Shown here: one piece after another, positions 23,905 through 64,000 of the stretch | Position numbering within the stretch: position 1 is the first letter of the stretch | How the letters are laid out: the number at the start of each line of letters is the position of its first letter | Origin: Rhizobium sp. ACO-34A | GTDB taxonomy: Bacteria; Pseudomonadota; Alphaproteobacteria; Rhizobiales; Rhizobiaceae | Direction of reading: 5' to 3' | Assembly (NCBI GenBank): GCA_002600635.1 | Contig: CP021372.1 | Span: 1 to 64,000, forward strand | Length of the DNA stretch: 64,000 nucleotides | Program-made: the position numbers and the translations under genes | The notes under the pieces: model-generated | Told to the model about the DNA's origin: nothing | What the model saw: only the letters and a program-made list of their open reading frames with translations | The model's database searches: none

Positions 23905-23909
23905 AGTCT

Positions 23910-28727: not shown

Positions 28728-28775
28728 CTCATTCACTCCGCTTCCTCCTGACTCCGGCCTTCATAGAGGCCGGCA

Positions 28776-32545: not shown

Positions 32546-32553
32546 GTTTGCTC

Positions 32554-36723: not shown

Positions 36724-36805
36724 CTTGCTGCTCCGAAATTCATTTCACGCATGCCGGCTCCGTCGCTACGGTCACTCGCGATTTTGACAGCATTCGGAGC
36801 ATACT

Positions 36806-38159: not shown

Positions 38160-38188
<29 letters not shown>
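36806..38188 (+). CDS. Second sulfatase (formylglycine-dependent)
   Basis: 460 residues. N-terminal metal motif FFTDQQRFD (about 10-18), maturation motif CGPAR at 53-57, the GKWHL signature near 110 and the later metal site FTSDHGCHFKT. The start is GTG with GGAG six bases upstream. No signal peptide, so cytoplasmic like the first sulfatase, from which it differs widely: the two probably act on different esters or successive sulfates. Overlaps the following FGE gene by 29 bases. Confidence 0.93.
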
Positions 38189-39149
<961 letters not shown>

Positions 39150-40952: not shown

Positions 40953-41001
40953 CCGGATCGACAGCGAAGGCGAGACGACAGGCAATGCGGGAACGGGAAG
41001 T

Positions 41002-42584: not shown

Positions 42585-42591
42585 GCGCCGA

Positions 42592-44103: not shown

Positions 44104-44158
44104 CCCACATGGCCTTTTCATCTTTTTCCAAACCCGCCTTTCATCAGGAATTTGAATC

Positions 44159-46428: not shown

Positions 46429-46436
46429 GGTTAGCG

Positions 46437-47345: not shown

Positions 47346-47457
47346 CGAATGTGGCGGAAAGGCATTCTACCAAATAATACATAAATAACATGTAATTACT
47401 GTAAAATTGAACGTGGACGCTATATTCGTCTGAGCCGAAAGATCGAAAGGGAAAAAC

Positions 47458-48846: not shown

Positions 48847-49043
48847 CTGATCGGGCAGCTTCGGCCAGTGGGCAGGTGACTTGTGGATCACCCCTTGAAT
48901 GGAGTCTAGACGTGAGCTTCTCCCTCGTGGTCCGAAGCGGGCTTGAAGCGTTCTCAAAGCTGAGCGGGAACGACAGCCACCGGTGGTGACTTGTCGTCAG
49001 GGTCCCCCTAAACCCCAAAACGAATCGACACGCCCGGCGCAAA

Positions 49044-49817: not shown

Positions 49818-49833
49818 CTAAATTCCCCCTAAA

Positions 49834-49848
49834 GTCCGATTATCGGAC
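49834..49848. promoter_or_regulatory. IclR-type operator 1 (GTCC-N7-GGAC)
   Basis: GTCCGATTATCGGAC, extended by AA/TT to a 19-base near-perfect palindrome, 17 bases upstream of the iclR-type GTG start: suited to autorepression. Confidence 0.65.
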
Positions 49849-49928
49849 TTAAATACAGAGCGTCCCGGATAATTGCAAATGATGTCTTGCCTAAATTCAA
49901 AATACGATGATTTTAGAAGTGTTTTCGA

Positions 49929-49943
49929 GTCCAATATATGGAC
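49929..49943. promoter_or_regulatory. IclR-type operator 2 (GTCC-N7-GGAC)
   Basis: GTCCAATATATGGAC, 20 bases before the start of the SDR gene at 49963; same arms and spacing as the other three sites. Confidence 0.65.
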
Positions 49944-49962
49944 TTTTCGGGAGAGATCAGGA

Positions 49963-50700
49963 ATGGAAAATCGTTTTGAAGGGCGAGTCGCTGTTGTAAC
50001 CGGTGGCGCACGAGGTATCGGCTTGGCTGTAGCCAAGAGGCTTGCCGGGGAGGGCGCCAGGGTGGCCATATGGGACTTGCGTGGGGCAACAGAAGCTGCG
50101 GCGGCGCTGGGCAAGAACTCGATGGGTGTCGCGGTGGATGTGAGTGACGAGTCCTCCGTGATCGAGGCCATGAGGCAAACGCGGGCACAACTCGGTCCGG
50201 CCGACATAATGATCACTGCGGCCGGCATCACGGGGCCGACGCAGCCCGTTCAGGGGCATCCCTATGCGGAATGGAAGCGGGTCGTCGATATTCATCTCGG
50301 CGGCGTCTTCCTGTGCTGCAGGGCTGCGCTCGATGACATGGTGGCGCGAGATTATGGGCGCATCATTACGATTGCGTCAGTGGCGGGCAAAGAGGGCAAT
50401 CCGAACGCATCCTCTTATTCGGCCGCGAAGGCGGGCATAATCGGCTTCACGAAATCGCTGGGCAAGGAACTCGCCGCAACGGGCGTGCGTGCCAATGTCA
50501 TCGCGCCCGGCCTCATCAATACGCCGTTGATGGAGCAGCTTCCGCCGGAACAGGTTCAGTTTTCTCTGGGTAAGATCCCGCAGGGGCGTTTTGGTACTGT
50601 CGAAGAGTGCGCTTCGCTCGTTGGCTGGCTTGCGTCGGAGGAGTGCTCGTTCAACTCTGGTGCGGTCTTTGATCTTTCCGGCGGTCGCGCGACCTACTGA
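49963..50700 (+). CDS. SDR-family oxidoreductase
   Basis: 245 residues, classical short-chain dehydrogenase: cofactor motif TGGARGIG (13-20), NAG replaced by TAAGI near 85, catalytic Ser in ITIASVAG, YSAAK near 152 and PGLINTPL. NAD(P)-dependent alcohol/ketone interconversion is expected; it reads like a FabG-type carbonyl reductase. The start at 49963 gives the usual N-terminus. Divergent from the IclR gene, with operator 2 just upstream and operator 3 touching its stop codon, so it belongs to the same regulon as the LIV operon. Confidence 0.9.
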   Translation: MENRFEGRVAVVTGGARGIGLAVAKRLAGEGARVAIWDLRGATEAAAALGKNSMGVAVDVSDESSVIEAMRQTRAQLGPADIMITAAGITGPTQPVQGHPYAEWKRVVDIHLGGVFLCCRAALDDMVARDYGRIITIASVAGKEGNPNASSYSAAKAGIIGFTKSLGKELAATGVRANVIAPGLINTPLMEQLPPEQVQFSLGKIPQGRFGTVEECASLVGWLASEECSFNSGAVFDLSGGRATY

Positions 50701-50715
50701 GTCCATTTAATGGAC
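50701..50715. promoter_or_regulatory. IclR-type operator 3 (GTCC-N7-GGAC)
   Basis: GTCCATTTAATGGAC begins at the base after the SDR stop codon. It lies about 360 bases before the binding-protein gene, in an AT-rich stretch, and may act with operator 4. Confidence 0.6.
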
Positions 50716-51073
50716 AAGTGAAAGTTTCTCGTCAGCCTGTCATGAAATCTGAAAATCGGAATTTTTCGGTGAAAAAAGATCCTTTTTGCAGGAAATTCCA
50801 ATTATTTCCCATCGAGGAAGGTTTTTCGGATTTGATGCAAGGCAAGAAAAATTTCCATTAAGTCCGAATAGTGGACGCTTCAAGTTGACCGCATGTCCCA
50901 GTCTGCGGCAACTTCGCGAACAGGAGGAGCCGGGTCCGTGAACGTGAGGGAGCGTTCATTCGGGGCGCCGGCCATGGGGGAGCCCGGCCTGAACTGATTG
51001 TCGATCCGGTTTCGGCGCATGCCCGAGGGTGTGCGCCGAATGGGTCGAGTTGCGCCTAAAGGGAGGAAGCACA
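50716..51073. promoter_or_regulatory. Promoter/leader region of the LIV operon
   Basis: The first 150 bases are AT-rich (promoter-like) up to operator 4 at 50862-50876; the rest is a roughly 200-base leader. It holds a 34-codon frame (50893-50997) with no recognisable product; I do not call it a gene. Confidence 0.45.
50862..50876. promoter_or_regulatory. IclR-type operator 4 (GTCC-N7-GGAC)
   Basis: GTCCGAATAGTGGAC, with the less symmetric centre of the four, about 200 bases before the start of the LIV-type binding-protein gene. Probably over or next to the operon promoter. Confidence 0.6.
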
Positions 51074-52309
51074 ATGAAATTCAATCGTATCTTCGTCATC
51101 TCCGGTCTCATGGCCACCCTTTCGTCGGTGGCCTACGCCGAGGATACATTCAAGTTCGCCATGATCGATCCCTTCTCCGGTCCGGCCGCGGTCGTGACCG
51201 AACGGATCAATAAGGTCCTCAGTCACTCCGTTGCCGAGGTCAATGCGAACGGCGGCCTGAACGGCCAGAAGATCGAAATCCTGACCTTCGACAACAAAAT
51301 GTCCCCGCAAGAAACGGCGATCCAGGCGCAGAAGGCGATCGATGCCGGCGCCCGCATCCTTCAGACGAGCGTTTCCTCGTCGAATACGTTCGCTCTTGTC
51401 GATTTCGTGCGCAAGTACAACCGCCGCAATCCCGACAAGCGGGTGATGGTATTCGACGGCGCATCCCATGACCCGGCGACGACCGGAGCCAAGTGCAGCC
51501 CCTACAGCTTTTCCTGGGTGCTCAACGCCAACATGAAGACGGCCGGCCTCGCTTCCTACCTGAAGACCCGTCCGGATATCACCAAGGTTTTCCTGCTGAA
51601 CGCAGAGGGCTCTTCCGGGCAGACCACGCGTCAGAGCGTGATCGACATGGTCGGCAAGGCGCGCCCGGATATCGAATGGGTCGGCGATGATACGCACCCG
51701 TTGCAGAAGATCACGGATTTTGCGCCCTACATCGCCAAGATCCGCGCCTCGGGTGCACAAGCCGTCATCACCTCCGACTGGGGCGCCGATCTGGCGCTGG
51801 TGCTGAAGTCGGCAGGAGAATCCGGCCTTGGTGTGGAGTGGTTCACCTATTTCTCGACAGGCCCCGGTGCTCCGACGGCAATTGCCCAGGCAGGCCTCAA
51901 GGATCTCGTCTACTCGGTCTTCGATGGCGACGCCGGTATCGATAATGCGGAACTGAAGGCGTTCGAGACCTCCTTCCGCGTGGAGCAGGGCATATCCGCA
52001 AGCCCGTTCCCCGGTGATACTTCAGCCATCCGCGCTCTCGCGGAGGCGGCAAAGAAGGCTGGTTCCAACGAGACCGGTGCACTCGCGTCCGCGCTTGAAG
52101 GCGTAGAGTTCAAGACGGTCTACGGTGCGCCGGCGACGATGCGTCCCGATGATCACCAGATCATCACCCAGATGGCAGTTTCGACCTTTGGCCCGGTTTC
52201 CGGTGATGCGCTGGACGAGGACAAGACCGGCTGGGGCTGGACAAACGTTGCTATCATCCCCGCGACGGACGTCACGTTGCCTTCGACCTGCAACATGGAT
52301 CGCTCCTGA
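51074..52309 (+). CDS. LIV-type ABC substrate-binding protein
   Basis: 411 residues with a Sec signal peptide (about 1-21, ending SVAYA) and a Leu/Ile/Val-binding-protein fold (FKFAMIDPFSGPAAVV; VNANGGLNGQKIEI). LIV-like receptors also take aromatic acids, amides and short carboxylates (family knowledge). The context, an operon for oxidation of a ketone, argues against branched-chain amino acids. Strong ribosome site GGGAGGAAG. First gene of the operon that runs to 62578. Confidence 0.93.
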   Translation: MKFNRIFVISGLMATLSSVAYAEDTFKFAMIDPFSGPAAVVTERINKVLSHSVAEVNANGGLNGQKIEILTFDNKMSPQETAIQAQKAIDAGARILQTSVSSSNTFALVDFVRKYNRRNPDKRVMVFDGASHDPATTGAKCSPYSFSWVLNANMKTAGLASYLKTRPDITKVFLLNAEGSSGQTTRQSVIDMVGKARPDIEWVGDDTHPLQKITDFAPYIAKIRASGAQAVITSDWGADLALVLKSAGESGLGVEWFTYFSTGPGAPTAIAQAGLKDLVYSVFDGDAGIDNAELKAFETSFRVEQGISASPFPGDTSAIRALAEAAKKAGSNETGALASALEGVEFKTVYGAPATMRPDDHQIITQMAVSTFGPVSGDALDEDKTGWGWTNVAIIPATDVTLPSTCNMDRS

Positions 52310-52382
52310 AACGGAACGTCTGCAGCGGGTCTGGCTCAGGCTCGCTTTCAGCCGCACGACCAATACAGTCGAGAGTGACACG

Positions 52383-53315
52383 ATGCCAGTTCAATACCCC
52401 TATCGCGAAGTCGTTTCCGGTCTCGGTTTTCCCGAAGGGCCGGTGGTTCTGCCCGACGGATCCCTGATCGTATGCGAGATCCAGCACCGCTGCCTTACGC
52501 AGATCGCGCCGGACGGAACGAAGACGATGTTGCTGACGATCGATGGCGCCCCGAACGGGGCAGCCATCGGCGCGGACGGCGCGCTTTACATCTGCAACAA
52601 CGGTGACGGTTTCGCCTGGGGCGAGCCGGGTGGCTGGACGCAGCCTGTTGGCGGCAACCCCGCCTATTCCGGAGGTCGTATCGAACGGGTGGATTTGCAG
52701 ACCGGCGAAGTGCGGGAACTCTATCGCGAAGTGGGCGGGCACGCGCTGCTGATGCCCAACGACATCGTCGTCGATAGCGATGGTGGTCTCTGGTTTACCG
52801 ACCATGGCATCCGCGACGCGCGCGGGTTTCGCCATGGCGGACTTTATTATGGCAAACCTGACGGATCTCATGTCCACGAAGTCGCCTATCCGATCACCAC
52901 GGCCAATGGTGTCGGCCTCTCTCCGGATGGCAGGACGGTCTATGTTGCCGAAACAGAGACCGGCCGCCTCTATGCCTATCCGATCACCGGGCCGGGGCAA
53001 ATTACAGCGCCATCTCCGGCAAGGCCGGGAGACGCCATTCTGGCGCAGATCGAGGGGTTCAAGCGCTATGACAGCCTGGCCGTCGAAGCCTGTGGCAACA
53101 TCTGCGTGGCCGGGCTGACGCCGGGCTGCATCACGGTCATTTCGCCTGATGGCAAGGAAGTCGAGACCGTCGAGATGCCGGACGAATTCTCCACAAACCT
53201 GGCCTTCGGCGGACCGGACATGAAGACCGCCTTTGTCACCCTTTCCGGCAAGGGACGGGTGATCGCGGTCGATTGGCCGCGACCGGGCCTCAAACCGAAC
53301 TTTTCGGGACTATGA
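52383..53315 (+). CDS. SMP-30/gluconolactonase-family hydrolase (probable lactonase)
   Basis: 310 residues, a six-bladed propeller hydrolase. GFPEGPVVLPDG holds the metal-binding Glu (about E18); LLMPNDIVVDSDGGLWFTD and NGVGLSPDGRTVYVAE are the family repeats with the Asn/Asp metal ligands. Members hydrolyse lactones with a divalent metal. Placed within an operon that also encodes a Baeyer-Villiger monooxygenase, it is the natural candidate to open a lactone product. The stop overlaps the LivH-type start (ATGA). Confidence 0.9.
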   Translation: MPVQYPYREVVSGLGFPEGPVVLPDGSLIVCEIQHRCLTQIAPDGTKTMLLTIDGAPNGAAIGADGALYICNNGDGFAWGEPGGWTQPVGGNPAYSGGRIERVDLQTGEVRELYREVGGHALLMPNDIVVDSDGGLWFTDHGIRDARGFRHGGLYYGKPDGSHVHEVAYPITTANGVGLSPDGRTVYVAETETGRLYAYPITGPGQITAPSPARPGDAILAQIEGFKRYDSLAVEACGNICVAGLTPGCITVISPDGKEVETVEMPDEFSTNLAFGGPDMKTAFVTLSGKGRVIAVDWPRPGLKPNFSGL

Positions 53316-54265
53316 CGATGAGCATCGATGTCCTCACCTTCTCGCTGCTGAACGGCGTGCTCTATGGCATGCTGCTTTTCCTGCTTGCCTCCGGGCTCAC
53401 GCTGATCTTTTCGATGATGGGCGTCCTCAACTTCGCCCACGCCAGCTTCTTCATGGTGGGCGCCTATCTCGGCTTCGCGATCTCCCGCCATACCGGCTTT
53501 TTCGCTGCTCTTATTCTTGCACCGCTTGCCGTCGGTATTCTCGGCATTCTGGTGGAGCGCTACGGCCTGAGGCGCGTGCATCGTTTCGGGCATCTGGGCG
53601 AATTGCTCTTCACTTTCGGTCTCGCCTTCGTACTGGAAGAGGCCGTGCAGATGATCTGGGGCCGTTCGCCGCAGGATTTCAAGGTGCCGGCCGTGCTTGA
53701 TTTTCCCGCCTTCACCCTGTTCGGTGCGGATTATCCGGCATTCCGCATATTCATGCTTGCGGTCTCGGTCATCGTCTTCGTCGGTCTCGGATTGCTTCTG
53801 ACCCGCACCCGTGTTGGCCTCATCGTCAAGGCGTCGCTCAACCATCCGGAAATGGTGTCCATGCTCGGTCACAATGTTCCGATGGTCTTCATGGGAGTGT
53901 TCGGCGTCGGTTCGGCACTCGCTGGTCTGGCAGGCGTTATCGCCGGCCCGGTTCTCGTCACGCAGCCTTCCATGGCGGCGGCGCTCGGACCGATCCTCTT
54001 CGTCATCATCGTGGTCGGCGGGCTTGGCTCCCTGACCGGGGCCTTCATCGCTTCGCTTCTCGTTGGTTTCATCCAGACCTTCGCGGTCGCAATCGACCTC
54101 TCGGTTTCCGATGTCTTCGGCCTCATCGGCATCCACAGCGCGCCGGCAATCTTCCGCGATGTGTGGAATGTCAGCGTCGCCCAGATCGGACCGGTCATCC
54201 CCTATCTGCTGCTCGTTCTCGTGCTGATCGTGCGGCCGGCAGGGCTTATCGGCAAGCGCATGTGA
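53312..54265 (+). CDS. LIV-type ABC permease (LivH family)
   Basis: 317 residues, about eight hydrophobic segments. GVLYGMLLFLLASGLTLIFSMMGVLNFAHASFFMVGAY is reduced here to its key parts: LTLIFSMMGVLNFAH is the LivH hallmark. Overlaps the lactonase gene by 4 bases. One half of the membrane channel with the gene at 54296. Confidence 0.93.
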   Translation: MTMSIDVLTFSLLNGVLYGMLLFLLASGLTLIFSMMGVLNFAHASFFMVGAYLGFAISRHTGFFAALILAPLAVGILGILVERYGLRRVHRFGHLGELLFTFGLAFVLEEAVQMIWGRSPQDFKVPAVLDFPAFTLFGADYPAFRIFMLAVSVIVFVGLGLLLTRTRVGLIVKASLNHPEMVSMLGHNVPMVFMGVFGVGSALAGLAGVIAGPVLVTQPSMAAALGPILFVIIVVGGLGSLTGAFIASLLVGFIQTFAVAIDLSVSDVFGLIGIHSAPAIFRDVWNVSVAQIGPVIPYLLLVLVLIVRPAGLIGKRM

Positions 54266-54295
54266 CGGTTACCGGGAAAGACAGGATACGCGAAT

Positions 54296-55588
54296 ATGAC
54301 TATCGGTACTGACATTTCCACGACGAACCGTCCTGCAGCCGGCATCGCCGTGCCGGGCATCGGGCCATGGCTTGCCGCAGCCGCTCTGCTTTTGGGTCTG
54401 CCACTGGTCTTCCAGGGCGACTCTGCGGTCTCGACCCTCAACTATCTCGGGATCATGGCGCTCTTTGCGCTTTCCTATAACGTGCTGCTCGGGCAGACCG
54501 GCCTGCTTTCACTCGGCCACGCGACCTTCTTCGGTCTTGGCGGTTTCGTGGTCTGTCACATCATCCTTGGCCTGTCCGAGGCGGGGTTGTCCTTTCCGCT
54601 CCCGCTCGTGCCGTTGTTCGGTGGCTTGGCGACGCTGCTGCTCGGCGTGTTCGCCGGCTGGCTCGCTTCGGCAAGGGGCGGCATGCCCTTTGCCATGATC
54701 ACGCTCGGCCTCAGCGAACTCGTCTATGCGGCGGCCGCCCTGTTTCCCTCGATCTACGGATCGGAAGAGGGCATCGGCATCGATCGCATGGAACTCGGCT
54801 CCTTCCTCGGTTTCGATTTTGCCTCGCCCGTTCACGTCTATTACGTGATCGCCGCCTGGCTGCTCGTCTGCGCTTTCCTGATGTATTATCTCGCACGCAC
54901 CCCCCTCGGCCTGCTTTCGAACGCCGTGCGCGACAATGCCGAACGTATCGAGTTTCTCGGCTTCTCCGCTCGCCGGGTGCGTATGCTGAGCTACGCCATC
55001 GCCTCCGGTTTCGCAGGCGTTGCCGGTGGTCTTGCGGCACTCAACTTCGAGATCATGACGGTGCATGAACTCAGCGCCGGCCAGTCCGCGCTGGTGTTGA
55101 TCATGACCTATATCGGCGGTACCCGGGTTTTCTTCGGCCCCATTCTCGGTGCCGTCGTGATCGGTCTCATGAAGATCTGGCTCTCCGATGTGACGCCTGC
55201 CTGGCAGCTCTATTTCGGCCTGCTTTTCATCTTCGTCGTCATGGTCGCGCCGGGCGGTCTCGCGGGTATGGTCCTGGGCGGCGCATCGCTCATCCGTTCA
55301 AGGCGGTTGAAAGTTGAAGCGCCGTTGCTTGCCGCGGTCGCCTGCACCGGTGCGGCAACTGTCGCGGGCGTGATTTTCCTGATCGAGCTTGGTTACCGGA
55401 TCGGCCTCGATGCCGCCCTTGGTCCCGATCTTGTCGTCCTCGGCGTTCCGCTTGACGCGCAATCTGTCTGGTCATGGTTGCTTGCCCTCGCGCTCGCGGT
55501 GGGCGGGTCTCTTGCCACCCGTGCAGTCGTTGGCAGTTTGAATGGACTGCGGCAGACGCTCGCCATCACGGAAAAAGGAGCGGTGTAA
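54296..55588 (+). CDS. LIV-type ABC permease (LivM family) with C-terminal extension
   Basis: 430 residues. The core (about 1-325) is a normal LivM permease (LLGQTGLLSLGHATFFGLGG; RDNAERIEFLGFSARRVR; RVFFGPILGAVV). About 100 residues follow the usual end (after MVAPGGLAGM), with two further hydrophobic segments (near 340-360 and 395-410) and a polar tail; the extension has no motif I know. TAATG overlap with the next gene. Confidence 0.92.
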   Translation: MTIGTDISTTNRPAAGIAVPGIGPWLAAAALLLGLPLVFQGDSAVSTLNYLGIMALFALSYNVLLGQTGLLSLGHATFFGLGGFVVCHIILGLSEAGLSFPLPLVPLFGGLATLLLGVFAGWLASARGGMPFAMITLGLSELVYAAAALFPSIYGSEEGIGIDRMELGSFLGFDFASPVHVYYVIAAWLLVCAFLMYYLARTPLGLLSNAVRDNAERIEFLGFSARRVRMLSYAIASGFAGVAGGLAALNFEIMTVHELSAGQSALVLIMTYIGGTRVFFGPILGAVVIGLMKIWLSDVTPAWQLYFGLLFIFVVMVAPGGLAGMVLGGASLIRSRRLKVEAPLLAAVACTGAATVAGVIFLIELGYRIGLDAALGPDLVVLGVPLDAQSVWSWLLALALAVGGSLATRAVVGSLNGLRQTLAITEKGAV

Positions 55589-56346
55589 TGACCAACAGTC
55601 TCGAAATCCGCGATCTCACGAAGAGCTTCGGTCCGGTCGCAATCATTCGCGGCATCAATCTCGATCTCCGGCAGGGAGAACGTCATGCCCTGATCGGCCC
55701 GAACGGCGCCGGCAAGTCCACCCTGTTTCACCTGATATCCGGCAGGCTTACGCCGACATCCGGGACGGTCCGCCTGAACGGCAGGGAGATCCAGGGCAGG
55801 AGCCCTGCCGCCATCTGCCATGCGGGCCTCGCGCGCAGCTTCCAGATCACCAACATCTTTCCGGAAATGTCCGTGCTCGACAATCTGCGTTGCGGCGTGC
55901 TCTGGCGGCTCGGTCATCGCTACAGCATTCGCCGCGTGCTTGGCAGGATGCCGGATGTTGCGGAGACGTGCGATCAGTTGCTGGAAGAGGTCGGTCTCAC
56001 CGGCCGCCGCCATCACCGGGCCGATACGCTGACCTATCCGGAACAGCGGGCGCTGGAACTCGGACTGGCAATCGCAAGCGGTGCGCAGACTCTGCTGCTC
56101 GATGAGCCCATGGCCGGCATGAGTCACTCCGAAACCGCAGCCGCTCTCGCGCTCATCCGCAAGGTTACCGAGAACCGCACATTGCTGATGGTCGAGCATG
56201 ACATGGGCGTGATCTTCGAACTGGCGGACCGCATCTCCGTTCTGGTCTACGGCGAGATCATCGCGACCGGTACGCCGGAGGAAATCCGTTCCAACAAGGC
56301 GGTCCAGGAAGCCTATCTCGGGACCGCGATGGAGAAGGCCGCATGA
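55588..56346 (+). CDS. LIV-type ABC ATPase (LivG family)
   Basis: 252 residues: Walker A GPNGAGKST (about 38-46), Q-loop RSFQITNIFPEMSVLDN, Walker B TLLLDEPMAGMSHSE and H-loop VEHDMGVIF. The usual LSGG signature is altered to LTYPEQRALELGLAIA, a variant seen in LivG proteins. Its last 4 bases overlap LivF. Confidence 0.93.
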   Translation: MTNSLEIRDLTKSFGPVAIIRGINLDLRQGERHALIGPNGAGKSTLFHLISGRLTPTSGTVRLNGREIQGRSPAAICHAGLARSFQITNIFPEMSVLDNLRCGVLWRLGHRYSIRRVLGRMPDVAETCDQLLEEVGLTGRRHHRADTLTYPEQRALELGLAIASGAQTLLLDEPMAGMSHSETAAALALIRKVTENRTLLMVEHDMGVIFELADRISVLVYGEIIATGTPEEIRSNKAVQEAYLGTAMEKAA

Positions 56347-57083
56347 ACGCTCCCGTTCGCGAAGTCGCACCACACGTTCCCGCTGACGTCCTTCTGGAGG
56401 TCGCGGGCCTTCATGCCTGGTACGGCAAGAGCCATATCCTGCATGGGGTCGCTCTCAGCGTCGGGCGCGGCGAAATCGTCAGCCTTCTCGGCCGTAACGG
56501 CGCGGGCCGGTCGACGCTTCTGAAGGCGATCATGGGTGCGGTCGACATGCGTGGCGACGTGCGTCTCGCCGGCCGGCAGCTCGCCGGCATGAAACCTCAT
56601 CAGGTGGCGCGGGCCGGACTGGGCTATGTGCCGGAAAGCCGCGATGTCTTCGCTGATCTCACCGTGCGCGAAAACCTGCAGCTCGGCCTGAAGGCGAAAG
56701 GCGAGGGCCGCTGGAGCATGGAAGATATCTTCGGGCTCTTTCCGGTCCTCAGGACCCGCGCGGACACCCGCGCCGGCGTGCTCTCCGGCGGTGAACAGCA
56801 GATGCTCACGATCTGCCGTACCCTGATCGGCGACCCTGATCTCATCATGATCGACGAACCGACAGAAGGTCTTGCGCCGAAAATGGTGATGGCGGTTGGG
56901 GAATTGCTGCGCCGGATCGCCGAACGCGGCGTTTCCATTCTGCTCGTGGAGCAGAAGCTGGTGATCGCCATGGAGGTCAGCCATCGGCTCTATGTCATGG
57001 GCCATGGCGAAATCGCGTTCGAGGGAACGCCGCAATCCCTGCTGGACAATCCGGAAGTCCGTGCCGAATGGCTGGAGGTTTGA
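56343..57083 (+). CDS. LIV-type ABC ATPase (LivF family) with Arg in Walker A
   Basis: 246 residues. Walker A reads GRNGAGRST, with Arg (codon CGG, 56508-56510, residue 56) where lysine normally contacts the ATP phosphates. The rest is orthodox: LSGGEQQMLTICRTLIG, Walker B LIMIDEPTEGLAP and LVEQKLVIA. I recall similar Arg variants in some rhizobial LivF proteins, so it may still bind ATP. With LivG it powers the importer. Confidence 0.92.
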   Translation: MNAPVREVAPHVPADVLLEVAGLHAWYGKSHILHGVALSVGRGEIVSLLGRNGAGRSTLLKAIMGAVDMRGDVRLAGRQLAGMKPHQVARAGLGYVPESRDVFADLTVRENLQLGLKAKGEGRWSMEDIFGLFPVLRTRADTRAGVLSGGEQQMLTICRTLIGDPDLIMIDEPTEGLAPKMVMAVGELLRRIAERGVSILLVEQKLVIAMEVSHRLYVMGHGEIAFEGTPQSLLDNPEVRAEWLEV

Positions 57084-57087
57084 CGAA

Positions 57088-57861
57088 ATGACAAAACAAC
57101 GTCCCGTAGCCGTCGTCACCGGCGGTCGCCAGGGTCTGGGGCGCGCGATCGCGCTGGAACTCGCCCGTCGTGAATTCGACGTCGCCGTTCTCGACCTTGT
57201 CGAAGACGAGAAAGCCGAGGGCCTGAAGGCGGATCTGGCCGCGCTCGGTGCCCGTGCCCATTTCGGCGTGATGGATCTTGCTGCGATCGAGACCCATGAG
57301 GGCGCCCTCGACGGCGTTGAGGCAAACCTCGGTCCGATCGATGCGCTGATCAACAATGCCGGTATTGCATCGCGGCCATTGACCGACATTCTCGACATCT
57401 CCGCGGAGGCATTCGACCGCAATCTCGGCATCAACCTGCGCGGCAGCTTCTTTCTGACCCAGGCAGTCGCGCGGCGGATGCTCACCCGGACGGTGGAGAC
57501 ATATCGGTCCATCACCTTCATCACCTCGATTGCCGCTTCGCATGCGTCGCCGGATCGCAGTCCTTACTGCGTGTCCAAGGCTGGTCTCTCCATGACTGCG
57601 TGCCTCTTCGCTGATCGGCTCGGCGGAAATGGTATTGCCGTGCATGAAGTCCGTCCCGGCTTCATCCGCACTGAAATGACCGGCTCTGCGCCAACCGGAA
57701 AGATCGACGCCTATATCGAGAACGGAACCGTTCCCATGCGCCGGTGGGGGCAATCCGGTGATATCGGCGCGGTCGTCTCGGCCCTTGCGGCCGGGGCTCT
57801 GCCCTATGTGACCGGCCAGCCGATCTACGTTGACGGAGGGTTTCACATCCCGACCGCCTGA
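57088..57861 (+). CDS. SDR-family oxidoreductase
   Basis: 257 residues: cofactor motif TGGRQGLG (about 11-18), NNAGIAS near 87, catalytic Ser in ITSIAASHAS, YCVSK, and PGFIRTEMTG. An acidic residue at the end of the second strand (LDLVED) suggests NAD rather than NADP. A FabG-like ketone/alcohol dehydrogenase. It starts 4 bases after LivF, so it is translated with the importer. Confidence 0.91.
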   Translation: MTKQRPVAVVTGGRQGLGRAIALELARREFDVAVLDLVEDEKAEGLKADLAALGARAHFGVMDLAAIETHEGALDGVEANLGPIDALINNAGIASRPLTDILDISAEAFDRNLGINLRGSFFLTQAVARRMLTRTVETYRSITFITSIAASHASPDRSPYCVSKAGLSMTACLFADRLGGNGIAVHEVRPGFIRTEMTGSAPTGKIDAYIENGTVPMRRWGQSGDIGAVVSALAAGALPYVTGQPIYVDGGFHIPTA

Positions 57862-57985
57862 TCCGTCGCAAAGGCCTGCCTGAAGGGGCAGGCGAGACAA
57901 ACCGAACCGACATCATGAGCGCATCCGCAACGCGGATGCGAACGGAGGTGCTTTGCCTCCGATCCGCAATCGAAAGGAGACCCAA

Positions 57986-58828
57986 GTGCTTGATCGACCC
58001 AAACCGCAGGAAAAGGAAGTCGTCGTTGGCGGCGTCACCGTGCGTTACCGTGTGGACGGACCTGAGAACGGCCGCTTGCCGCTGGTGATGGTGCATGGCA
58101 CTGCCGGCAGCATCGACGGCCATTACGGCTACCTGTTTCCCATGATGGCCTATCGCCAGCGTGTCATCGCGCTGGAATTTGCCGAACCTGAGGGCGAGAC
58201 GCTGGAGCTCGACCAACTCGTCGCACAGGTGCAGGCTGTCATCGACGCCGAACGCCCGGGCAAGCCCGTCGCCCTGATGGGCTATTCGCTTGGCGCCGTG
58301 GTTGCTGCCGCGACAGCGGCCCTCCTTGGAAAGCGCATCGAGAACCTGATCCTGATCGCCGGCTGGCAGAAGACGGATACCCATCAGCTCTTCCGAAACA
58401 AAGTCTGGAAGGCGCTACGCAACGACGGCTCCGCATCGTTGACGGAATACATGACCTTCTGCGCCTTCTCGCCAGCCTTCATGAATATCAGGACGGTGGA
58501 CGACATGGCGGCAGCCGCGGGCATGCTGAACGTCACCCCCTTCGTCGAAAAGCAGATGGATCTCAACACGCGCATCGATATCGCCGCCGCGGTCGAGACC
58601 ATCACCGCGAGAACGCTGGTGATCGGCTGCACCTCCGACATGATGGTGCCAAAGCACCATTCGAAGGCGTTGTTCGGCTCCATTCCGGACGCCCGGTATA
58701 CGGAAGTGCCGTCGGGTCATGCGGTGGTGCATGAGCGGCCTGCCGAGCTTTTCTATCACATCGACAATTTCACCCGTCTGCCCGGCACCCATCCGGCCGG
58801 CACGATCATTCCTGCCCAGAAGCCTTGA
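57986..58828 (+). CDS. Alpha/beta-hydrolase (probable esterase/lactonase)
   Basis: 280 residues, started at GTG 57986 with AAGGAG six bases upstream. HGTAGSIDGH is the oxyanion motif, the nucleophile elbow is GYSLGA (Ser near 101), the catalytic His is in GHAVVHERP near the end, and an Asp is expected in CTSDMMVPKHH. A soluble carboxyl-ester hydrolase. Directly before the Baeyer-Villiger monooxygenase, it could hydrolyse the ester or lactone that enzyme makes. Confidence 0.9.
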   Translation: MLDRPKPQEKEVVVGGVTVRYRVDGPENGRLPLVMVHGTAGSIDGHYGYLFPMMAYRQRVIALEFAEPEGETLELDQLVAQVQAVIDAERPGKPVALMGYSLGAVVAAATAALLGKRIENLILIAGWQKTDTHQLFRNKVWKALRNDGSASLTEYMTFCAFSPAFMNIRTVDDMAAAAGMLNVTPFVEKQMDLNTRIDIAAAVETITARTLVIGCTSDMMVPKHHSKALFGSIPDARYTEVPSGHAVVHERPAELFYHIDNFTRLPGTHPAGTIIPAQKP

Positions 58829-58838
58829 GGAGGCGAAC

Positions 58839-60317
58839 ATGACCACTCACACGAGCATTCTCATCATCGGTGCTGGGTTCGCCGGGCTTGGCATGGGCAT
58901 CCAGCTGCGCCGGGCGGGCCGAGAGGATTTCCTGATCATCGAGCGCGCCTCGGATGTCGGCGGCACCTGGCGCGACAACCATTATCCCGGTGTCGCCTGC
59001 GACGTGCCATCCCACCTTTATTCCTTCAGCTACCTCACCAATCCCAACTGGAGCCGTGTCTTCTCTCCCGGTGGCGAAATTCTCGACTACATGCGCGGTT
59101 GCGCGAAAGACGAAGGGCTGCTGCCGAAGATCCATTTCGAAACGGATATGCTCGAGTGCCGCTGGGATGCGGGCGCCGGACAGTGGGTGGTGAATACCTC
59201 GAAAGGTGTCTACACCGCGCCGATCCTGATTACCGGGACGGGACATCTGGCCGACAGCCGCTTGCCGGATGTCCAGGGCCTCGACAGCTTCACGGGTGCG
59301 TCCTTCCACTCCGCCGGGTGGGATCATTCCATCGATCTCAAGGGCAAGCGTATCGGGGTCGTGGGATCCGGCGCATCCGCGATCCAGGTCGTGCCGGAAA
59401 TGCAGAAACTGGCTTCCGAACTCGTGGTGTTCCAGCGTTCGGCCCCCTACATGATCCCGCGCGCCGACCGGGCCTATACGGAAGGTGAAAAGCGCCTGTT
59501 CCAGCGCGATCCGGAAACGGTCGATGCCCTGCGTTCGGAAATCTTCTGGGGCGGTGAATTCAACTTCGCCCAGCGTCGCAACATCCCGCGCTACCTGAAC
59601 GAAGCGAAGAAGATGGCGCTCGGACATCTCGATACGCAGGTTGCCGATCCGACGCTCAAGGCCAAGCTGACGCCGGACTATGAGATCGGCTGCAAGCGAC
59701 TGCTGATTTCCAACACCTATTATCCGGCGCTTTGCGCGGAAAACACGGTTCTGGAAGCTTCCGCGCTCGCCCGCGTCGAAGGTTCGAAGGCATATGGTGC
59801 AAGCGGCGAGGCCTATGATCTCGACGTGCTGATCTTTGCGACCGGCTTCGAGGCGGTTCGCCCCCCCTTCGCCAAGCGCATTTTCGGCACGGAAGGTATC
59901 AGCCTCGACGACCATTGGGACAAGGGGATGCAGGCGCATGACTCCATCGCCGTGCACGGCTATCCCAACCTCTTCATCATCAACGGTCCGAACACAGGCC
60001 TTGGCCATAATTCCATCGTCTACATCATCGAGGCGCAGGTCGATTACATCCTCGGCGCTCTCGACCATGCCGAGACCCGTGGCATCGCCGTGATGGAAGC
60101 CCGCAAGGATGCCGAGGATGCCTATATGGACCGCCTACACGAGCGTTCGCAGGGAACGGTCTGGCTCGCTGGCGGTTGCAAGAGCTGGTACGTAGACGAC
60201 CGGTCCGGTCGCCTTACGCTTGTCTGGCCGGACTTCGCGCATTCCTTCCGCGACGAAAACGGCACGTTCCATCCCGGCGACTACGTCACGCAGCCCGAGC
60301 GCATCGCCGCCGAATAA
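58839..60317 (+). CDS. Baeyer-Villiger flavin monooxygenase (type I)
   Basis: 492 residues. FAD motif GAGFAGLG (about 12-19), the Baeyer-Villiger fingerprint FxGxxxHxxxW/D at 151-162 (FTGASFHSAGWD), the NADPH motif GSGASA near 175 and ATGF near 335. Such enzymes insert oxygen next to a carbonyl, turning ketones to esters or cyclic ketones to lactones. GAGGAGG ribosome site. The operon's dehydrogenases and hydrolases supply the steps before and after. Confidence 0.94.
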   Translation: MTTHTSILIIGAGFAGLGMGIQLRRAGREDFLIIERASDVGGTWRDNHYPGVACDVPSHLYSFSYLTNPNWSRVFSPGGEILDYMRGCAKDEGLLPKIHFETDMLECRWDAGAGQWVVNTSKGVYTAPILITGTGHLADSRLPDVQGLDSFTGASFHSAGWDHSIDLKGKRIGVVGSGASAIQVVPEMQKLASELVVFQRSAPYMIPRADRAYTEGEKRLFQRDPETVDALRSEIFWGGEFNFAQRRNIPRYLNEAKKMALGHLDTQVADPTLKAKLTPDYEIGCKRLLISNTYYPALCAENTVLEASALARVEGSKAYGASGEAYDLDVLIFATGFEAVRPPFAKRIFGTEGISLDDHWDKGMQAHDSIAVHGYPNLFIINGPNTGLGHNSIVYIIEAQVDYILGALDHAETRGIAVMEARKDAEDAYMDRLHERSQGTVWLAGGCKSWYVDDRSGRLTLVWPDFAHSFRDENGTFHPGDYVTQPERIAAE

Positions 60318-60327
60318 GGAGACCTCC

Positions 60328-61107
60328 ATGTTGAATGGCAAGACTATCATCGTCACGGGTGCTGCTTCCGGCATCGGGGCGGAAACCGCGCGGCAGATCA
60401 AGGCCGCCGGTGGTCGTGTGATTGCTCTCGACCGCAACGAGCCTGCCTTCCCTGTCGATGCCTTTCACAAGATCGACCTGACAGACGAGGCTGCCGTCGA
60501 TGGTGCGATAGCCGCGTTGCGTCCGCTCAAGGCCGACGGGCTCGCCAACATTGCCGGCGTGCCGCCGACCGCATCGCCGCAGGTAGTGTTGACCGTCAAT
60601 CTGGTTGCGTTAAAGAGGCTGACGCTCGGTCTCGTCGACAGCCTTGCGGACAGAGCCTCGATCGTCAATCTGGCGTCGCTGGCCGGTCTTGGCTGGGAAG
60701 GTAATGTCGCCGCCATCAAGGCGGCGTCGGGGCTCACCCATGCCGGTGTGGCAGGCTTCTGCGCCGAGCATGCGATCACGGCGGAGAACAGCTATTTCTT
60801 TACGAAGCAGGCGCTCGTGGCCTGGACCCATGAACACCGCTGGACATGGCGGGAACGTGGCATCCGCATCAATGCGGTCAGTCCCGGTCCCGTCGAAACG
60901 CCGATCTTGGTCGATTTCCTCGAGACGCTCGGCGAGCGGGCGGAAGAGGACATGCGCATCATGGATCGGCCAGGTACGCCACTGGACATAGCTCCCGTCG
61001 TCGTATTCCTGTTGTCGGAGGGATCGCGCTGGATCCGCGGCGCGAATATTCCCGTCGATGGTGGCATGCGGGCGCATATCGATGCGACGACCGCCGGCCT
61101 GTCCTGA
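60328..61107 (+). CDS. SDR-family oxidoreductase (3-alpha-HSD/coniferyl-alcohol type)
   Basis: 259 residues of the subgroup typified by Comamonas 3-alpha-hydroxysteroid dehydrogenase: cofactor motif TGAASGIG (10-17), ANIAGVPPT in place of NNAG, VNLASLAG, a long insert before the catalytic YFFTK, and NAVSPGPVETPIL. Likely NAD-dependent oxidation of a cyclic or bulky secondary alcohol. 10 bases after the monooxygenase gene, with GGAGACCTCC upstream. Confidence 0.91.
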   Translation: MLNGKTIIVTGAASGIGAETARQIKAAGGRVIALDRNEPAFPVDAFHKIDLTDEAAVDGAIAALRPLKADGLANIAGVPPTASPQVVLTVNLVALKRLTLGLVDSLADRASIVNLASLAGLGWEGNVAAIKAASGLTHAGVAGFCAEHAITAENSYFFTKQALVAWTHEHRWTWRERGIRINAVSPGPVETPILVDFLETLGERAEEDMRIMDRPGTPLDIAPVVVFLLSEGSRWIRGANIPVDGGMRAHIDATTAGLS

Positions 61108-61132
61108 GAACGAAGCGAGGAGACGAATAACG

Positions 61133-62578
61133 ATGACCCTGCAATTGCTGATCGGCGGGAAGGACCACGCCGCTTCTGGCGACCGAGCCTATGAACGCCA
61201 TGATCCCGTAACAGGCAAGGTTGCCTCTGTAGCTGCTGCGGCGACACCTGCCGATGCACTCGCCGCTGTGAATGCTGCGGCAAAGGCCTTTGCCGTCTGG
61301 TCTGCCAAGGGCCCCGAGGCTCGCCGTTCCGTGCTGATGAAGGCGGGGGAGATCATGGAACACCGTGCCGGCGATTTCATCTCGGCGATGGTCGAGGAGA
61401 CAGGCGCGACGAAGACCTGGGCCGGCTTCAACGTCCATCTGGCCGCCGGTATCCTGCTTGAGGCCGGCGCCATGACCACCCAGATCGGCGGCGAAGTCAT
61501 CCCTTCCAACAAGCCCGGCACGCTGGCGATGTCGGTCGCCCGCCCGCGCGGCGTCTGCCTCGGTATCGCGCCGTGGAACGCGCCGGTCATTCTCGGCACG
61601 CGAGCAGTCGCGATGCCGCTCGCCTGCGGTAATACTGTGGTGCTCAAGGCATCGGAAATGTGCCCTCGCACCCATCGGCTGATCGGTGAGTGCCTGGTGG
61701 AAGCCGGATTGCCGGAAGGGGCGATCAACGTCATCAGCAATGCGCCGGAGGATGCGGCCGAGGTGGTGAAAGCTCTCGTAGAGGCTCCCGCCGTTCGTCA
61801 CGTCAACTTCACCGGCTCGACGGCTGTCGGCCGCATCATCGGTCGATTGGCCGGTGAGAATCTCAAGCCGGTATTGCTGGAACTCGGCGGCAAGGCTCCG
61901 TTCGTCGTTCTGGACAGCGCGGACATCGACGGAGCGGTGAATGCAGCGATCTTCGGCGCCTTCATGAACCAGGGTCAGATCTGCATGTCGACGGAGCGGA
62001 TCATCGTGGTCGAGGCGGTTGCCGATGACTTTGTCAGCCGCCTGGCCAAGCGCGCCTATGTCCTGCCCTATGGCGATCCACGCGGCGATGTCGTGCTGGG
62101 TTCGCTGGTCAACCCGAGTGCTGCTGAAAAAATGGATGGCCTGATTGCCGATGCCGTCTCCAAGGGTGCCAAGGTCGTCGCGGGCGGCGTGCGTCACGGT
62201 GCCGTCCATTCGGCGACGCTTCTCGATGGTGTGACATCCGAGATGCGCATCTATTCCGAGGAATCCTTCGGTCCGGTGAAGTCGATCATCCGCGTCAAGG
62301 ATGCGGAAGAGGCCATTCGCGTCGCCAACGACACCGAATACGGTTTGTCCTCGGCAGTCTTTGCCCAGGATATCCGGCAGGCGCTCGACGTTGCCAACAA
62401 GCTCCAGAGCGGCATCTGCCATATCAACGGTCCGACCGTTGCGGACGAGCCACAAATGCCGTTCGGCGGTGTCAAGGCCAGCGGCTATGGCCGGTTCGGA
62501 GGAAAGGCCGCAATCGCCGAATTCACCGACCTCCGCTGGATCACCATAGAAGACGCCGGTCAGCACTATCCGTTCTGA
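61133..62578 (+). CDS. NAD(P)-dependent aldehyde dehydrogenase
   Basis: 481 residues, full-length class. Motifs: GIAPWNAPVILGTRA, FTGSTAVGR, catalytic Glu in LELGGKAP (about E250), catalytic Cys in GQICMSTERI (about C284) and the PFGGVKASGYG end. It groups by eye with vanillin/salicylaldehyde dehydrogenases. It would oxidise the aldehyde formed from the alcohol half of a cleaved ester or from an omega-hydroxy acid. Last gene of the operon; a terminator follows. Confidence 0.94.
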   Translation: MTLQLLIGGKDHAASGDRAYERHDPVTGKVASVAAAATPADALAAVNAAAKAFAVWSAKGPEARRSVLMKAGEIMEHRAGDFISAMVEETGATKTWAGFNVHLAAGILLEAGAMTTQIGGEVIPSNKPGTLAMSVARPRGVCLGIAPWNAPVILGTRAVAMPLACGNTVVLKASEMCPRTHRLIGECLVEAGLPEGAINVISNAPEDAAEVVKALVEAPAVRHVNFTGSTAVGRIIGRLAGENLKPVLLELGGKAPFVVLDSADIDGAVNAAIFGAFMNQGQICMSTERIIVVEAVADDFVSRLAKRAYVLPYGDPRGDVVLGSLVNPSAAEKMDGLIADAVSKGAKVVAGGVRHGAVHSATLLDGVTSEMRIYSEESFGPVKSIIRVKDAEEAIRVANDTEYGLSSAVFAQDIRQALDVANKLQSGICHINGPTVADEPQMPFGGVKASGYGRFGGKAAIAEFTDLRWITIEDAGQHYPF

Positions 62579-62583
62579 AAGAC

Positions 62584-62612
62584 ACATCGGGGCGAGAAAA
62601 TCGCCCCGATGT
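62584..62612 (+). terminator. Terminator at the end of the catabolic operon
   Basis: 12-bp perfect stem, ACATCGGGGCGA (62584-62595) with 62601-62612, and a GAAAA loop, 5 bases after the aldehyde dehydrogenase stop. No long T tract. Confidence 0.7.
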
Positions 62613-62764
62613 CTTGGAGTCCTGACCGTTCGGCTTCATGCAATCCATTCGTCGATGACATATGTGAGTGGGGGACGGGACGGCTTAATCTTTGTCAGGC
62701 CCACCTCGCAGATAACGGTCGCTGTATGGTCGTCTCCGCACACCGGAGAGTGCATGCGGCGGAG

Positions 62765-63475
62765 CTATTCGAACGCAATGTTCGAGTCGTCGGCAATAAT
62801 GGACAATCGTGGCTTCAAACCGTCGGCCAACAAGGCGAAACACTGCTTCAGGTAGGTCCGTCTATCCTTGCCGCCTGGCCATTGCGGGGTCTGCGAGGTC
62901 TTGAGTGACGAGGCTCCGAAAACGACGTCCATGATCATGGCCGCTGCCAGCGCTGTATCGTTTATGCTTACCCGACCGACCGAGTTCTGCCGATCAAGCC
63001 ATTCCTGAAGCAGGGTGATTGATTGCTCCGGGCCTTGTGCCTTGAGGATTGGCACCAGCTCGGGAAATTGATGGCTCTCCACCAGGAACATGGCCATCAG
63101 CGCGTCGCGTTTTCGGCCCGCCTCGTCGTCAAGATCGATCCGGAATATTTGCCCCAACGCCGTTTCCAGCGGAATGTCTGCATAGTCGCCCGGCAGCGCG
63201 AGCATGGTTTGCCGATGGTTGGCGACGACTGCGGCGAACAGATCGGTCTTGCCGGGAAAGAAACGATAGATGGAGGCCAGCGAAACGTGAGCGGCGGCGG
63301 CTATCTCCCCCATCGTCGTCTTGCCGTAGCCACGTTCGAGAAAGAGCAAGGCGGCTACGTCGACAATCGCGGTCCGTTGCTGCGTGTCTGCGACCACTTT
63401 CGGGCGGCCCCGGGGGCGACGCTCATCTGACGATTTCTCCTTCGGTTGGCCTGCGGCCCGATCGGACGTGGACAT
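62765..63475 (-). CDS. TetR-family regulator
   Basis: 236 residues with a basic 30-residue N-terminal tail (RRPRGRPKVV). Helix-turn-helix at about 45-75 (TTMGEIAAAAHVSLASIYRFFPGKTDLF), then an all-helical ligand domain. Divergent from an AcrA-like efflux gene over 126 bases that contain a palindrome on the -10 element, so it should repress that efflux system and perhaps itself. Confidence 0.92.
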   Translation of the reverse strand: MSTSDRAAGQPKEKSSDERRPRGRPKVVADTQQRTAIVDVAALLFLERGYGKTTMGEIAAAAHVSLASIYRFFPGKTDLFAAVVANHRQTMLALPGDYADIPLETALGQIFRIDLDDEAGRKRDALMAMFLVESHQFPELVPILKAQGPEQSITLLQEWLDRQNSVGRVSINDTALAAAMIMDVVFGASSLKTSQTPQWPGGKDRRTYLKQCFALLADGLKPRLSIIADDSNIAFE

Positions 63476-63491
63476 GATGCTTGCCTCACAT

Positions 63492-63519
63492 TTGACGACT
63501 TTGATATTATGGATAATAT
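63492..63519 (+). promoter_or_regulatory. Promoter of the efflux gene with overlapping TetR operator
   Basis: TTGACG (63492-63497), 16 bases, then TAATAT (63514-63519) gives a good sigma-70-type promoter. The palindrome ATATTAT-GG-ATAATAT (63504-63519) covers the -10 box, the classic arrangement for TetR-family repression. Confidence 0.6.
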
Positions 63520-63601
63520 TGATTACTGTAAATGCCTGTGGGGATCTGGGTTTGAGAATGGCTCAGCAACAGTCCGGTCGAAGTGAAGGACACGAATTTC
63601 G

Positions 63602-64000
63602 ATGAAAACATTAAAAAGCCTGCGCCTTGTCTGGATTCCGCTGTTGGTGGCCGCATGTAGTCCTTCGGAGGATACGAAGCCAGTGACATCTGCGGTGGAG
63701 GTCGGATACGTCACGGCAAAATCCGAGGCTGTCCCTTATTCCATCGAGCTACGCGGTCGTGTGGTGGCGTTGGCGACCGCAGAAGTTCGTCCGCAGGTGG
63801 ACGGTATCGTCCGCAAAATTGCGTTCACGGAGGGCCGGGAGGTCAAGGCCGGCGACGTCCTTTATGAAATCGACGACCGGAAGTTCAAGGCGGCTGTCGC
63901 GGCCGCTGAGGCCGCGTTGAAAAAGGCTGAAGCCGCGACGGCAAGTGCGCGGACGACGTATGACCGGAACAAATCCCTGGCCGAAACGAAGGCCGTCAGC
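63602..64000 (+). CDS. RND efflux periplasmic adaptor (AcrA/MexA-like), partial
   Basis: The first 133 codons are in the window and the frame is still open at the edge. N-terminal lipoprotein signal with lipobox LVAAC (Cys 19), then the AcrA-type start VRPQVDGIVRKIAFTEGREVKAGDVLYEID (trimmed: the lipoyl motif around GDVLYEID) and the beginning of the coiled-coil hairpin (AAEAALKKAEAA). It anchors to the inner membrane and couples an RND pump to TolC; the pump gene should lie beyond the window. Regulated by the divergent TetR protein (inference). Confidence 0.9.
   Translation, partial: MKTLKSLRLVWIPLLVAACSPSEDTKPVTSAVEVGYVTAKSEAVPYSIELRGRVVALATAEVRPQVDGIVRKIAFTEGREVKAGDVLYEIDDRKFKAAVAAAEAALKKAEAATASARTTYDRNKSLAETKAVS

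Follow-up and report, generated by a model that had tools for sequence, protein, structure and literature searches.

We analyzed a 64,000-nucleotide stretch of DNA from Rhizobium sp. ACO-34A (CP021372.1, positions 1 to 64,000; hereafter, the window), the start of contig C2 (516,813 bases) in a genome of 6.28 Mb on five contigs, with regard to a gene cluster in which a LIV-type importer stands beside a predicted Baeyer-Villiger monooxygenase (BVMO). Eleven genes, all on the plus strand, occupy positions 51074 to 62578. Several of them overlap or lie no more than 10 bases apart, and the largest intergenic distance is 91 bases, or 124 bases if the hydrolase gene begins at the GTG codon at 57986. 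Pfam and NCBIfam searches agree on the families of these genes. All of the genes named in this interval by an earlier sequence-only reading were found at their positions and on the same strand, with the lactonase gene between the receptor gene and the first permease gene. That reading was right about the gene content and too narrow about the extent: the unit goes beyond 51074 to 62578, and a divergent IclR gene and a gene for a short-chain dehydrogenase/reductase (SDR), named SDR1, are also members. The cluster is more than chance, because its gene set recurs in two further genomes (loci L109 and L151). The 13 genes assigned to the unit, i.e., these eleven, IclR and SDR1, are as follows (ALDH, aldehyde dehydrogenase).

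49044 to 49817, minus strand: IclR-family regulator (Pfam HTH_IclR and IclR_C), divergent from SDR1
49963 to 50700, plus strand: SDR1, predicted secondary-alcohol dehydrogenase (Pfam adh_short; YxxxK and TGxxxGxG motifs; 73% identity in L109 and 67% in L151)
51074 to 52309, plus strand: LIV-type periplasmic binding protein (Peripla_BP_6, 194 bits; signal peptide by eye)
52383 to 53315, plus strand: SMP-30 lactonase (SGL, 160.9 bits against a cut-off of 26.3; no signal peptide seen by eye)
53318 to 54265, plus strand: LivH-type permease (BPD_transp_2)
54296 to 55588, plus strand: LivM-type permease (BPD_transp_2)
55588 to 56346, plus strand: LivG-type ATPase (ABC_tran, BCA_ABC_TP_C)
56343 to 57083, plus strand: LivF-type ATPase (ABC_tran)
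57088 to 57861, plus strand: SDR2 (NCBIfam PRK12745, 3-ketoacyl-ACP reductase, 304.5 bits, cut-off 250)
57986 to 58828, plus strand: alpha/beta hydrolase, predicted esterase for the BVMO product (Abhydrolase_6; GYSLG elbow); the GTG start at 57986 has a ribosome site by eye, and the open reading frame itself opens at TTG 57953
58839 to 60317, plus strand: type I BVMO, 492 residues (both type I fingerprints, two GxGxx(G/A) motifs)
60328 to 61107, plus strand: SDR3, predicted aryl-alcohol dehydrogenase (NCBIfam PRK12428, coniferyl-alcohol dehydrogenase, 272.6 bits, cut-off 242)
61133 to 62578, plus strand: ALDH of the salicylaldehyde/vanillin dehydrogenase group (nearest solved relatives 6QHN, 9IHB and 4JZ6)

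The unit is rare and conserved. SDR1, the importer, SMP-30, SDR2, the hydrolase and the BVMO occur together in genome G221 of the same family (L109) and, with SDR3, in genome G1193 of the same taxonomic order (L151), where LivH precedes the receptor. The L109 stretch stops at a contig end after the BVMO gene, i.e., before the position of SDR3 and ALDH. Among the matches listed, 45 receptor relatives had 66% identity or more and covered 90% or more of the query (three others were partial), and the next full-length ones were at 54%. Eleven of these 45 seemingly share a contig with one of 120 listed BVMO relatives, as judged by identical sizes of the longest contig, and a twelfth agrees in contig size with L151; the eleven include Celeribacter baekdonensis, Pseudooceanicola, Mangrovicoccus and Rhizobium alvei. 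This synteny, together with the 11 cases in which receptor and BVMO relatives seemingly lie on the same contigs, bears out the earlier proposal of a single catabolic unit made up of importer, SDRs, BVMO, hydrolase and ALDH. The search for syntenic operons that it had suggested found the importer with catabolic genes in L109 and L151. With the own genome counted, 2 of 63 genomes in the genus sample had a receptor match at E 1e-60, one of them at only 42% identity, and 2 of 387 in the order sample had a BVMO match at E 1e-150; at E 1e-80, BVMO matches were present in 14 of 297 genomes of the family, exceeding 43% identity only in G221 and the own genome. The E 1e-150 search of the class sample (1 of 385) and the phylum sample (1 of 398) returned the own genome only. 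In addition, a near-identity plasmid search gave no record spanning 80% of positions 40000 to 63999; 12 records matched part of this region at 95-99%, and the flanks 62580 to 63999 and 48850 to 51100 had no match.

The BVMO contains two Rossmann motifs and both fingerprints of the type I class, [AG]GxWxxxx[FY]P[GM]xxxD and FxGxxxHxxxW[PD] (residues 11, 176, 41 and 151), as these are worded in a passage of PMC12724174, and its assignment to type I, already made in the sequence-only reading, is confirmed. Its nearest relative among solved proteins is phenylacetone monooxygenase (1W4X, 210 bits). The alpha/beta hydrolase gene lies 10 bases ahead of it, and the encoded protein has 103 bits to a solved carboxylesterase (8QZU). 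In a BVMO survey that kept 80 of at least 596 loci, the BVMO was preceded by a hydrolase match (E 1e-10) in 15 of the 21 genome loci whose BVMO identity was at least 50%, and in none of the 59 below this value. The unit therefore shares the defining feature of BVMO-plus-esterase clusters, namely a BVMO that adjoins an alpha/beta hydrolase in a conserved pair.

The last two genes point to aromatic chemistry. The ALDH is clearly closest to the salicylaldehyde/vanillin group, with 603 bits to salicylaldehyde dehydrogenase (6QHN), 588 bits to vanillin dehydrogenase (9IHB) and 531 bits to NahF (4JZ6), followed by 4-hydroxybenzaldehyde dehydrogenase (340 bits) and succinate-semialdehyde dehydrogenases (at most 273 bits); no NCBIfam model was shown above its cut-off, and aryl-aldehyde activity is predicted. 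SDR3 clears the cut-off of the coniferyl-alcohol dehydrogenase model. Together, the two enzymes suggest a route in which an aryl alcohol would be converted via an aryl aldehyde into an aromatic acid. The genome also encodes PobA (672.7 bits, cut-off 538.7), PcaH (359.5 bits, cut-off 296.4) and an ALDH paralogue (61% identity) adjoining a p-hydroxycinnamoyl-CoA hydratase/lyase (460 bits, cut-off 276). A sigma-54 activator with XylR_N and V4R domains is encoded divergently from SDR3 and ALDH in Curvibacter. In G221, a flavoprotein of the p-cresol-methylhydroxylase/vanillyl-alcohol-oxidase type (634 bits to 9H40) and a cytochrome c are found some 2 kb ahead of SDR1, on the far side of the IclR gene; the same locus holds an acetolactate-synthase-family thiamine-diphosphate enzyme and a Glyoxalase_4 protein between SDR1 and the receptor (L109:7796-10243).

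With about even confidence, we read the cluster as an uptake-and-degradation unit for an aryl-alkyl alcohol or ketone, the side chain of which probably bears a carboxylate or a lactone; every substrate and the order of the steps are what we infer from the predicted proteins. The LIV-type importer would carry the compound into the cell, where the cytosolic SMP-30 would open its ring, provided that the compound is a lactone. SDR1 and/or SDR2 may then oxidize a secondary alcohol of the side chain to a ketone. An aryl alcohol-to-acid route through SDR3 and ALDH would need the BVMO to insert its oxygen on the arylmethyl side, yielding an ester from which the alpha/beta hydrolase would release a short acid and an alcohol of the benzyl type. 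This alcohol would be taken by SDR3 and then ALDH via the aldehyde to an aromatic acid, which could enter the 4-hydroxybenzoate/protocatechuate pathway (PobA/Pca). A raspberry-ketone route with a phenylacetaldehyde-type ALDH was considered and dropped as less likely, since the nearest solved relatives of the ALDH are of the benzaldehyde type. The pinoresinol pathway was also set aside, as the main text of its published description has no Baeyer-Villiger or lactone term.

Which enzyme handles the BVMO product can be judged from versions of the unit without this importer. Four of them (L028, L029, L032 and L052) come, in no matched order, from Azohydromonas, a Rhodoferax metagenome-assembled genome (MAG), Curvibacter and a Pseudomonadota MAG. 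Hydrolase and BVMO are present in all four, as are SDR3 and ALDH; SDR1 is also found in each of them (a contig edge cuts that of L032), SDR2 in three and IclR in three. The importer is unmatched there, save for a 27% ATPase match in L029, and SMP-30 has no match in any of the four. SMP-30 was seen only with this particular importer, in all three loci that have it (the window, L109 and L151). Since the hydrolase is the steady partner of the BVMO while SMP-30 goes with one importer only, the likely enzyme for the BVMO product is the hydrolase rather than the lactonase, whose substrate is probably the compound taken up by this importer. The closest solved relatives of SMP-30 are 8DJF/7RIS (318 bits), which we take to be the beta-propeller lactonase of Rhodopseudomonas palustris (Hall et al. 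2023).

These data bear on the chemistry of the sequence-only reading. Its idea of a catabolic system stands, and its cyclic-ketone and lactone steps gained little support. Type I BVMOs turn cyclic ketones into lactones, and a carboxylated cyclic ketone (a terpenoid, a jasmonate-like compound or a steroid fragment) could be imported, converted by the BVMO to a lactone, opened by SMP-30 or the hydrolase, and oxidized as a hydroxy acid by SDR and ALDH. The constant company of SMP-30 and this importer would suit such a route, as would a steroid monooxygenase among the close solved BVMOs and the hydroxysteroid and borneol dehydrogenases nearest to SDR3 among solved proteins. We consider it rather doubtful, however: all four importer-free versions keep hydrolase, BVMO, SDR3 and ALDH with no SMP-30 found, the ALDH belongs to an aryl-aldehyde group, and no ring-degrading coenzyme A (CoA) genes are among the 13 genes. 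SMP-30 was rejected as the opener of the BVMO product on account of the importer-free versions, and the claim that it opens a lactone made from a cyclic ketone gains no support: no SMP-30 was found in those four, in L108 or in L049 (see below), and a hydrolase match precedes the BVMO in most close loci. A terpenoid or steroid fragment, the substrate suggested earlier, keeps the near-tie of the BVMO with steroid monooxygenase and the low-scoring relatives of SDR3 on its side, and is weaker than the aryl-alkyl ketone route.

The importer set of the LIV/HAAT kind is complete, with the binding protein, two permeases and two ATPases together. A branched-chain amino acid importer was rejected, as the scores are far below the cut-offs of the corresponding NCBIfam models (PRK15404, 59.5 against 477; PRK10740, 60.2 against 379; PRK11301, 54.9 against 366). 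Other versions of the cluster carry other transporters. Receptors in L032 and L052 were read as tripartite-tricarboxylate type; L032, which is 9.3 kb only, also has an unrelated LIV-type receptor on the opposite strand (by eye). L029 has a major facilitator superfamily (MFS) protein that comes closest to the metabolite/H+ symporter model (333.5 bits, below the cut-off of 443). On a Kocuria plasmid, two SDRs and a transporter annotated as tripartite tricarboxylate type come after the hydrolase-BVMO pair. A second cluster of G221 (L108) combines hydrolase and BVMO with another LIV importer (28-39% to that of the window), and in Microbacterium testaceum (L049:9077-16600) the genes for a hydrolase, a BVMO, two SDRs and a LIV importer of low similarity (28-42%) follow one another on one strand. 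Because L108 and L049 carry these other LIV importers with no SMP-30 match, LIV importers seem to have joined hydrolase-BVMO pairs more than once. Acyl-CoA dehydrogenase, ligase and kinase-like genes apparently follow the BVMO-hydrolase/LIV cluster in L108:1982-16567 (by eye).

Given the tripartite-tricarboxylate-type receptors, the Kocuria transporter and the symporter-like MFS protein (with its score below the cut-off), the earlier description of the substrate as polar and probably carboxylated is plausible. These transporter families also suit small organic acids, and small BVMO-esterase pairs for aliphatic ketones exist, as in acetone and methyl-ethyl-ketone systems. A non-aromatic linear ketone or keto acid of the levulinate or alkanone type, with SDR3 and ALDH acting on an aliphatic alcohol and aldehyde, is nevertheless quite unlikely in our judgment, as the similarity of the ALDH favors aryl aldehydes and SDR3 matches a coniferyl-alcohol dehydrogenase model. 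Within the aryl-alkyl reading, a candidate substrate can be named, although we regard this particular choice as improbable: 5-aryl-gamma-valerolactones or 5-aryl-4-hydroxypentanoates, which are microbial breakdown products of plant flavan-3-ols. SMP-30 would open the lactone, SDR1/SDR2 would form the 4-oxo acid, and the BVMO would give a benzyl succinate half-ester; the hydrolase would release a benzyl alcohol and succinate, and SDR3 and ALDH would produce a hydroxybenzoic acid for PobA/Pca. Such a substrate would assign a step to every gene, and the transporter types of the other versions would fit a carboxylate.

Further examination of the intergenic regions revealed four candidate operators.

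49834 to 49848, no strand: GTCCGATTATCGGAC, GTCC-N7-GGAC palindrome
49929 to 49943, no strand: GTCCAATATATGGAC, the same 15-mer being present upstream of SDR1 in L151
50701 to 50715, no strand: GTCCATTTAATGGAC, GTCC-N7-GGAC palindrome
50862 to 50876, no strand: GTCCGAATAGTGGAC, GTCC-N7-GGAC palindrome

These are the four GTCC-N7-GGAC sites of the 64 kb window, and every one lies within the gaps 49818 to 49962 and 50701 to 51073. As a number, four is weak evidence (1.45 are expected in the window, and four were reached in 5 of 100 shuffles); what matters is where the sites lie. When the four were condensed into a tighter pattern, a genome-wide scan found them and one more inside an unrelated reading frame, and a reversed control pattern found none. 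IclR homologues are divergent from SDR1 in L109 (58%) and in L028, L029 and L052 (38-43%), and one of about 41% adjoins the hydrolase-BVMO pair in L030 and L117. Palindromes were counted in ten loci whose IclR homologue has at least 30% identity, which excluded L045 (27%) and L031 (24%). The 400 bases upstream of IclR contained nine sites, distributed over six of the ten loci, where the frequency in the remaining sequence of these loci would predict 0.185. The pattern was derived from the window itself; without the window, seven upstream sites stand against about 0.19 expected (by arithmetic). Palindrome-bearing regions include Burkholderiales and Streptomyces loci, and one-mismatch sites are located upstream of IclR in L109 and L052. 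The L151 site, outside the ten-locus count, is identical to the 15-mer at 49929. Promoter and terminator scans stayed near shuffle level. A divergent IclR gene and palindromes in the shared promoter region, as in IclR-type units, indicate that the unit is probably under IclR control and regulated as one; the pairing of IclR with the palindromes and the induction are again what we infer. The TetR gene at 62765 to 63475 was rejected as the regulator and is not supported as a member, as comparison with the loci listed no match to it.

A number of observations weigh against the aryl-alkyl reading or the regulation proposed with it. Steroid monooxygenase, with 203 bits, is almost equal to phenylacetone monooxygenase as a relative of the BVMO, and the best solved matches of SDR3 are low ones, 3-alpha-hydroxysteroid dehydrogenase (74 bits) and borneol dehydrogenase (68 bits). 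By identity, every ALDH from the four importer-free versions is nearer to the vanillin-type paralogue of the genome (64-65%) than to the window ALDH (58-64%), and two of the four are nearer to the paralogue by bit score; because of this leaning, orthology of the ALDHs within the clusters is not established. SMP-30 has no match beside the other BVMO-linked LIV importers (L108 and L049), and its relatives near 50% identity sit in mixed contexts, one of them a sugar-type locus, so that it gives no clue to the substrate. IclR homologues without a palindrome in the 400 bases upstream occur in L034 and L039, and L151 has the palindrome with no IclR match in the stretch compared. L151 also has no ALDH match after SDR3. 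Moreover, no SDR3 or aryl-type ALDH match was found in the BVMO-hydrolase loci L108, L031, L030, L117, L118 and L119, and the SDR3 and ALDH steps are therefore not general.

Related hydrolase-BVMO loci of this latter kind would be compatible with an acetophenone-kind aryl ketone, from which the BVMO would make a phenyl ester, to be split by the hydrolase into a phenol and an acid, with SDR3 and ALDH on another branch. BVMO-esterase pairs do so in the systems described in passages of PMC9618137, PMC12724174 and PMC3746432. For the unit in the window, we hold this route to be unlikely: no ring-cleavage or phenol-hydroxylase gene is among the 13 genes, and SDR3 and ALDH, which are together in all four importer-free Pseudomonadota versions, would be left without a role.

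The aryl-alkyl reading can be set beside several known systems. The hap pathway for 4-hydroxyacetophenone in Pseudomonas fluorescens ACB reportedly also starts from a BVMO and an esterase, and hydroquinone ring-cleavage genes are expected with it; here, no hydroquinone ring-cleavage gene is among the 13 genes. More broadly, none of the 13 assigned genes is a phenol- or hydroquinone-processing gene of the hap/acp type, the rest of the genome not having been searched for them. Published BVMO-plus-esterase clusters for aryl ketones include, according to passages of the respective papers, acpAB (PMC9618137), bpfCD (PMC12724174) and a 4-sulfoacetophenone pair (PMC3746432). In strain GD02, acpAB likewise provides BVMO and esterase as the opening two steps, and the closest characterized relative of its BVMO is phenylacetone monooxygenase, which is also nearest to the window BVMO among solved proteins; it differs in its phenol product, and an importer, SMP-30, an SDR3/ALDH pair and IclR are not named in the passages on it (PMC9618137). 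The same paper cites the hap pathway. The bpfABCD cluster for bisphenol F in Sphingobium shares the BVMO and alpha/beta hydrolase; according to the passages on it, it also has a p-cresol-methylhydroxylase-type flavoprotein and a cytochrome c, genes found here only near the L109 cluster, its BpfC has 402 residues against 492 in the window BVMO, and its main text never uses the term "transporter" (PMC12724174). In Comamonas testosteroni KF-1, a BVMO and the esterase of the next gene also split a polar, charged ketone, 4-sulfoacetophenone, but the passages describe an IS1071-framed xenobiotic route with a phenol product (PMC3746432).

On the importer side, LIV/HAAT (family 4) components next to aromatic catabolic genes have been described in Cupriavidus and R. 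palustris, with no BVMO pairing in the passage on them (PMC2842291). In the literature searched, no description of a LIV importer operon with a BVMO was found. By its predicted content, the unit resembles BVMO-plus-hydrolase clusters but lacks the phenol-yielding and amino-acid-importer features. Its components are familiar: the BVMO-plus-esterase cluster is known, and the pairing with a LIV importer and a lactonase is a variant.

Several other clusters were observed in the window. A binding-protein gene at 41598 to 42584 has an in-frame stop after 136 residues, and this receptor looks broken in the present assembly; it adjoins an ABC importer of the nucleoside/BMP type (family by eye), whose ATPase gene starts at 42508 and whose permease genes extend to 47345. 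Around this importer lie acyl-CoA-dehydrogenase-like flavoproteins (39726 to 40952 and 44159 to 45409) and a luciferase-like monooxygenase (47458 to 48846), and positions 39726 to 48846 are possibly an organosulfur or similar scavenging cluster. The region 29973 to 39149 contains sulfatases at 29973 to 31601 (minus strand, by eye) and 36806 to 38188 (Pfam), a sulfatase-modifying-factor-like protein (38124 to 39149) and, by eye, a sugar-type ABC importer. Positions 16611 to 28736 hold an apparent nitrate assimilation cluster (siroheme and nitrite reductase, molybdopterin nitrate reductase and a NrtABC-like importer; by eye). Finally, positions 4663 to 11046 encode a protein of 2127 residues that begins with a phosphoesterase-like part and has numerous RTX-type repeats (GGxGxDxLx), with ABC/membrane-fusion export genes nearby (by eye).

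Since the Baeyer-Villiger route is tied here to an importer of its own, to a lactonase and to a palindrome, substrates can be screened directly, with one binding protein, one promoter and one enzyme to follow. If the aryl reading is true, the unit would show how some bacteria clip side chains of the phenylpropanoid or flavanol type, which would be relevant to the turnover of tannin and lignin.

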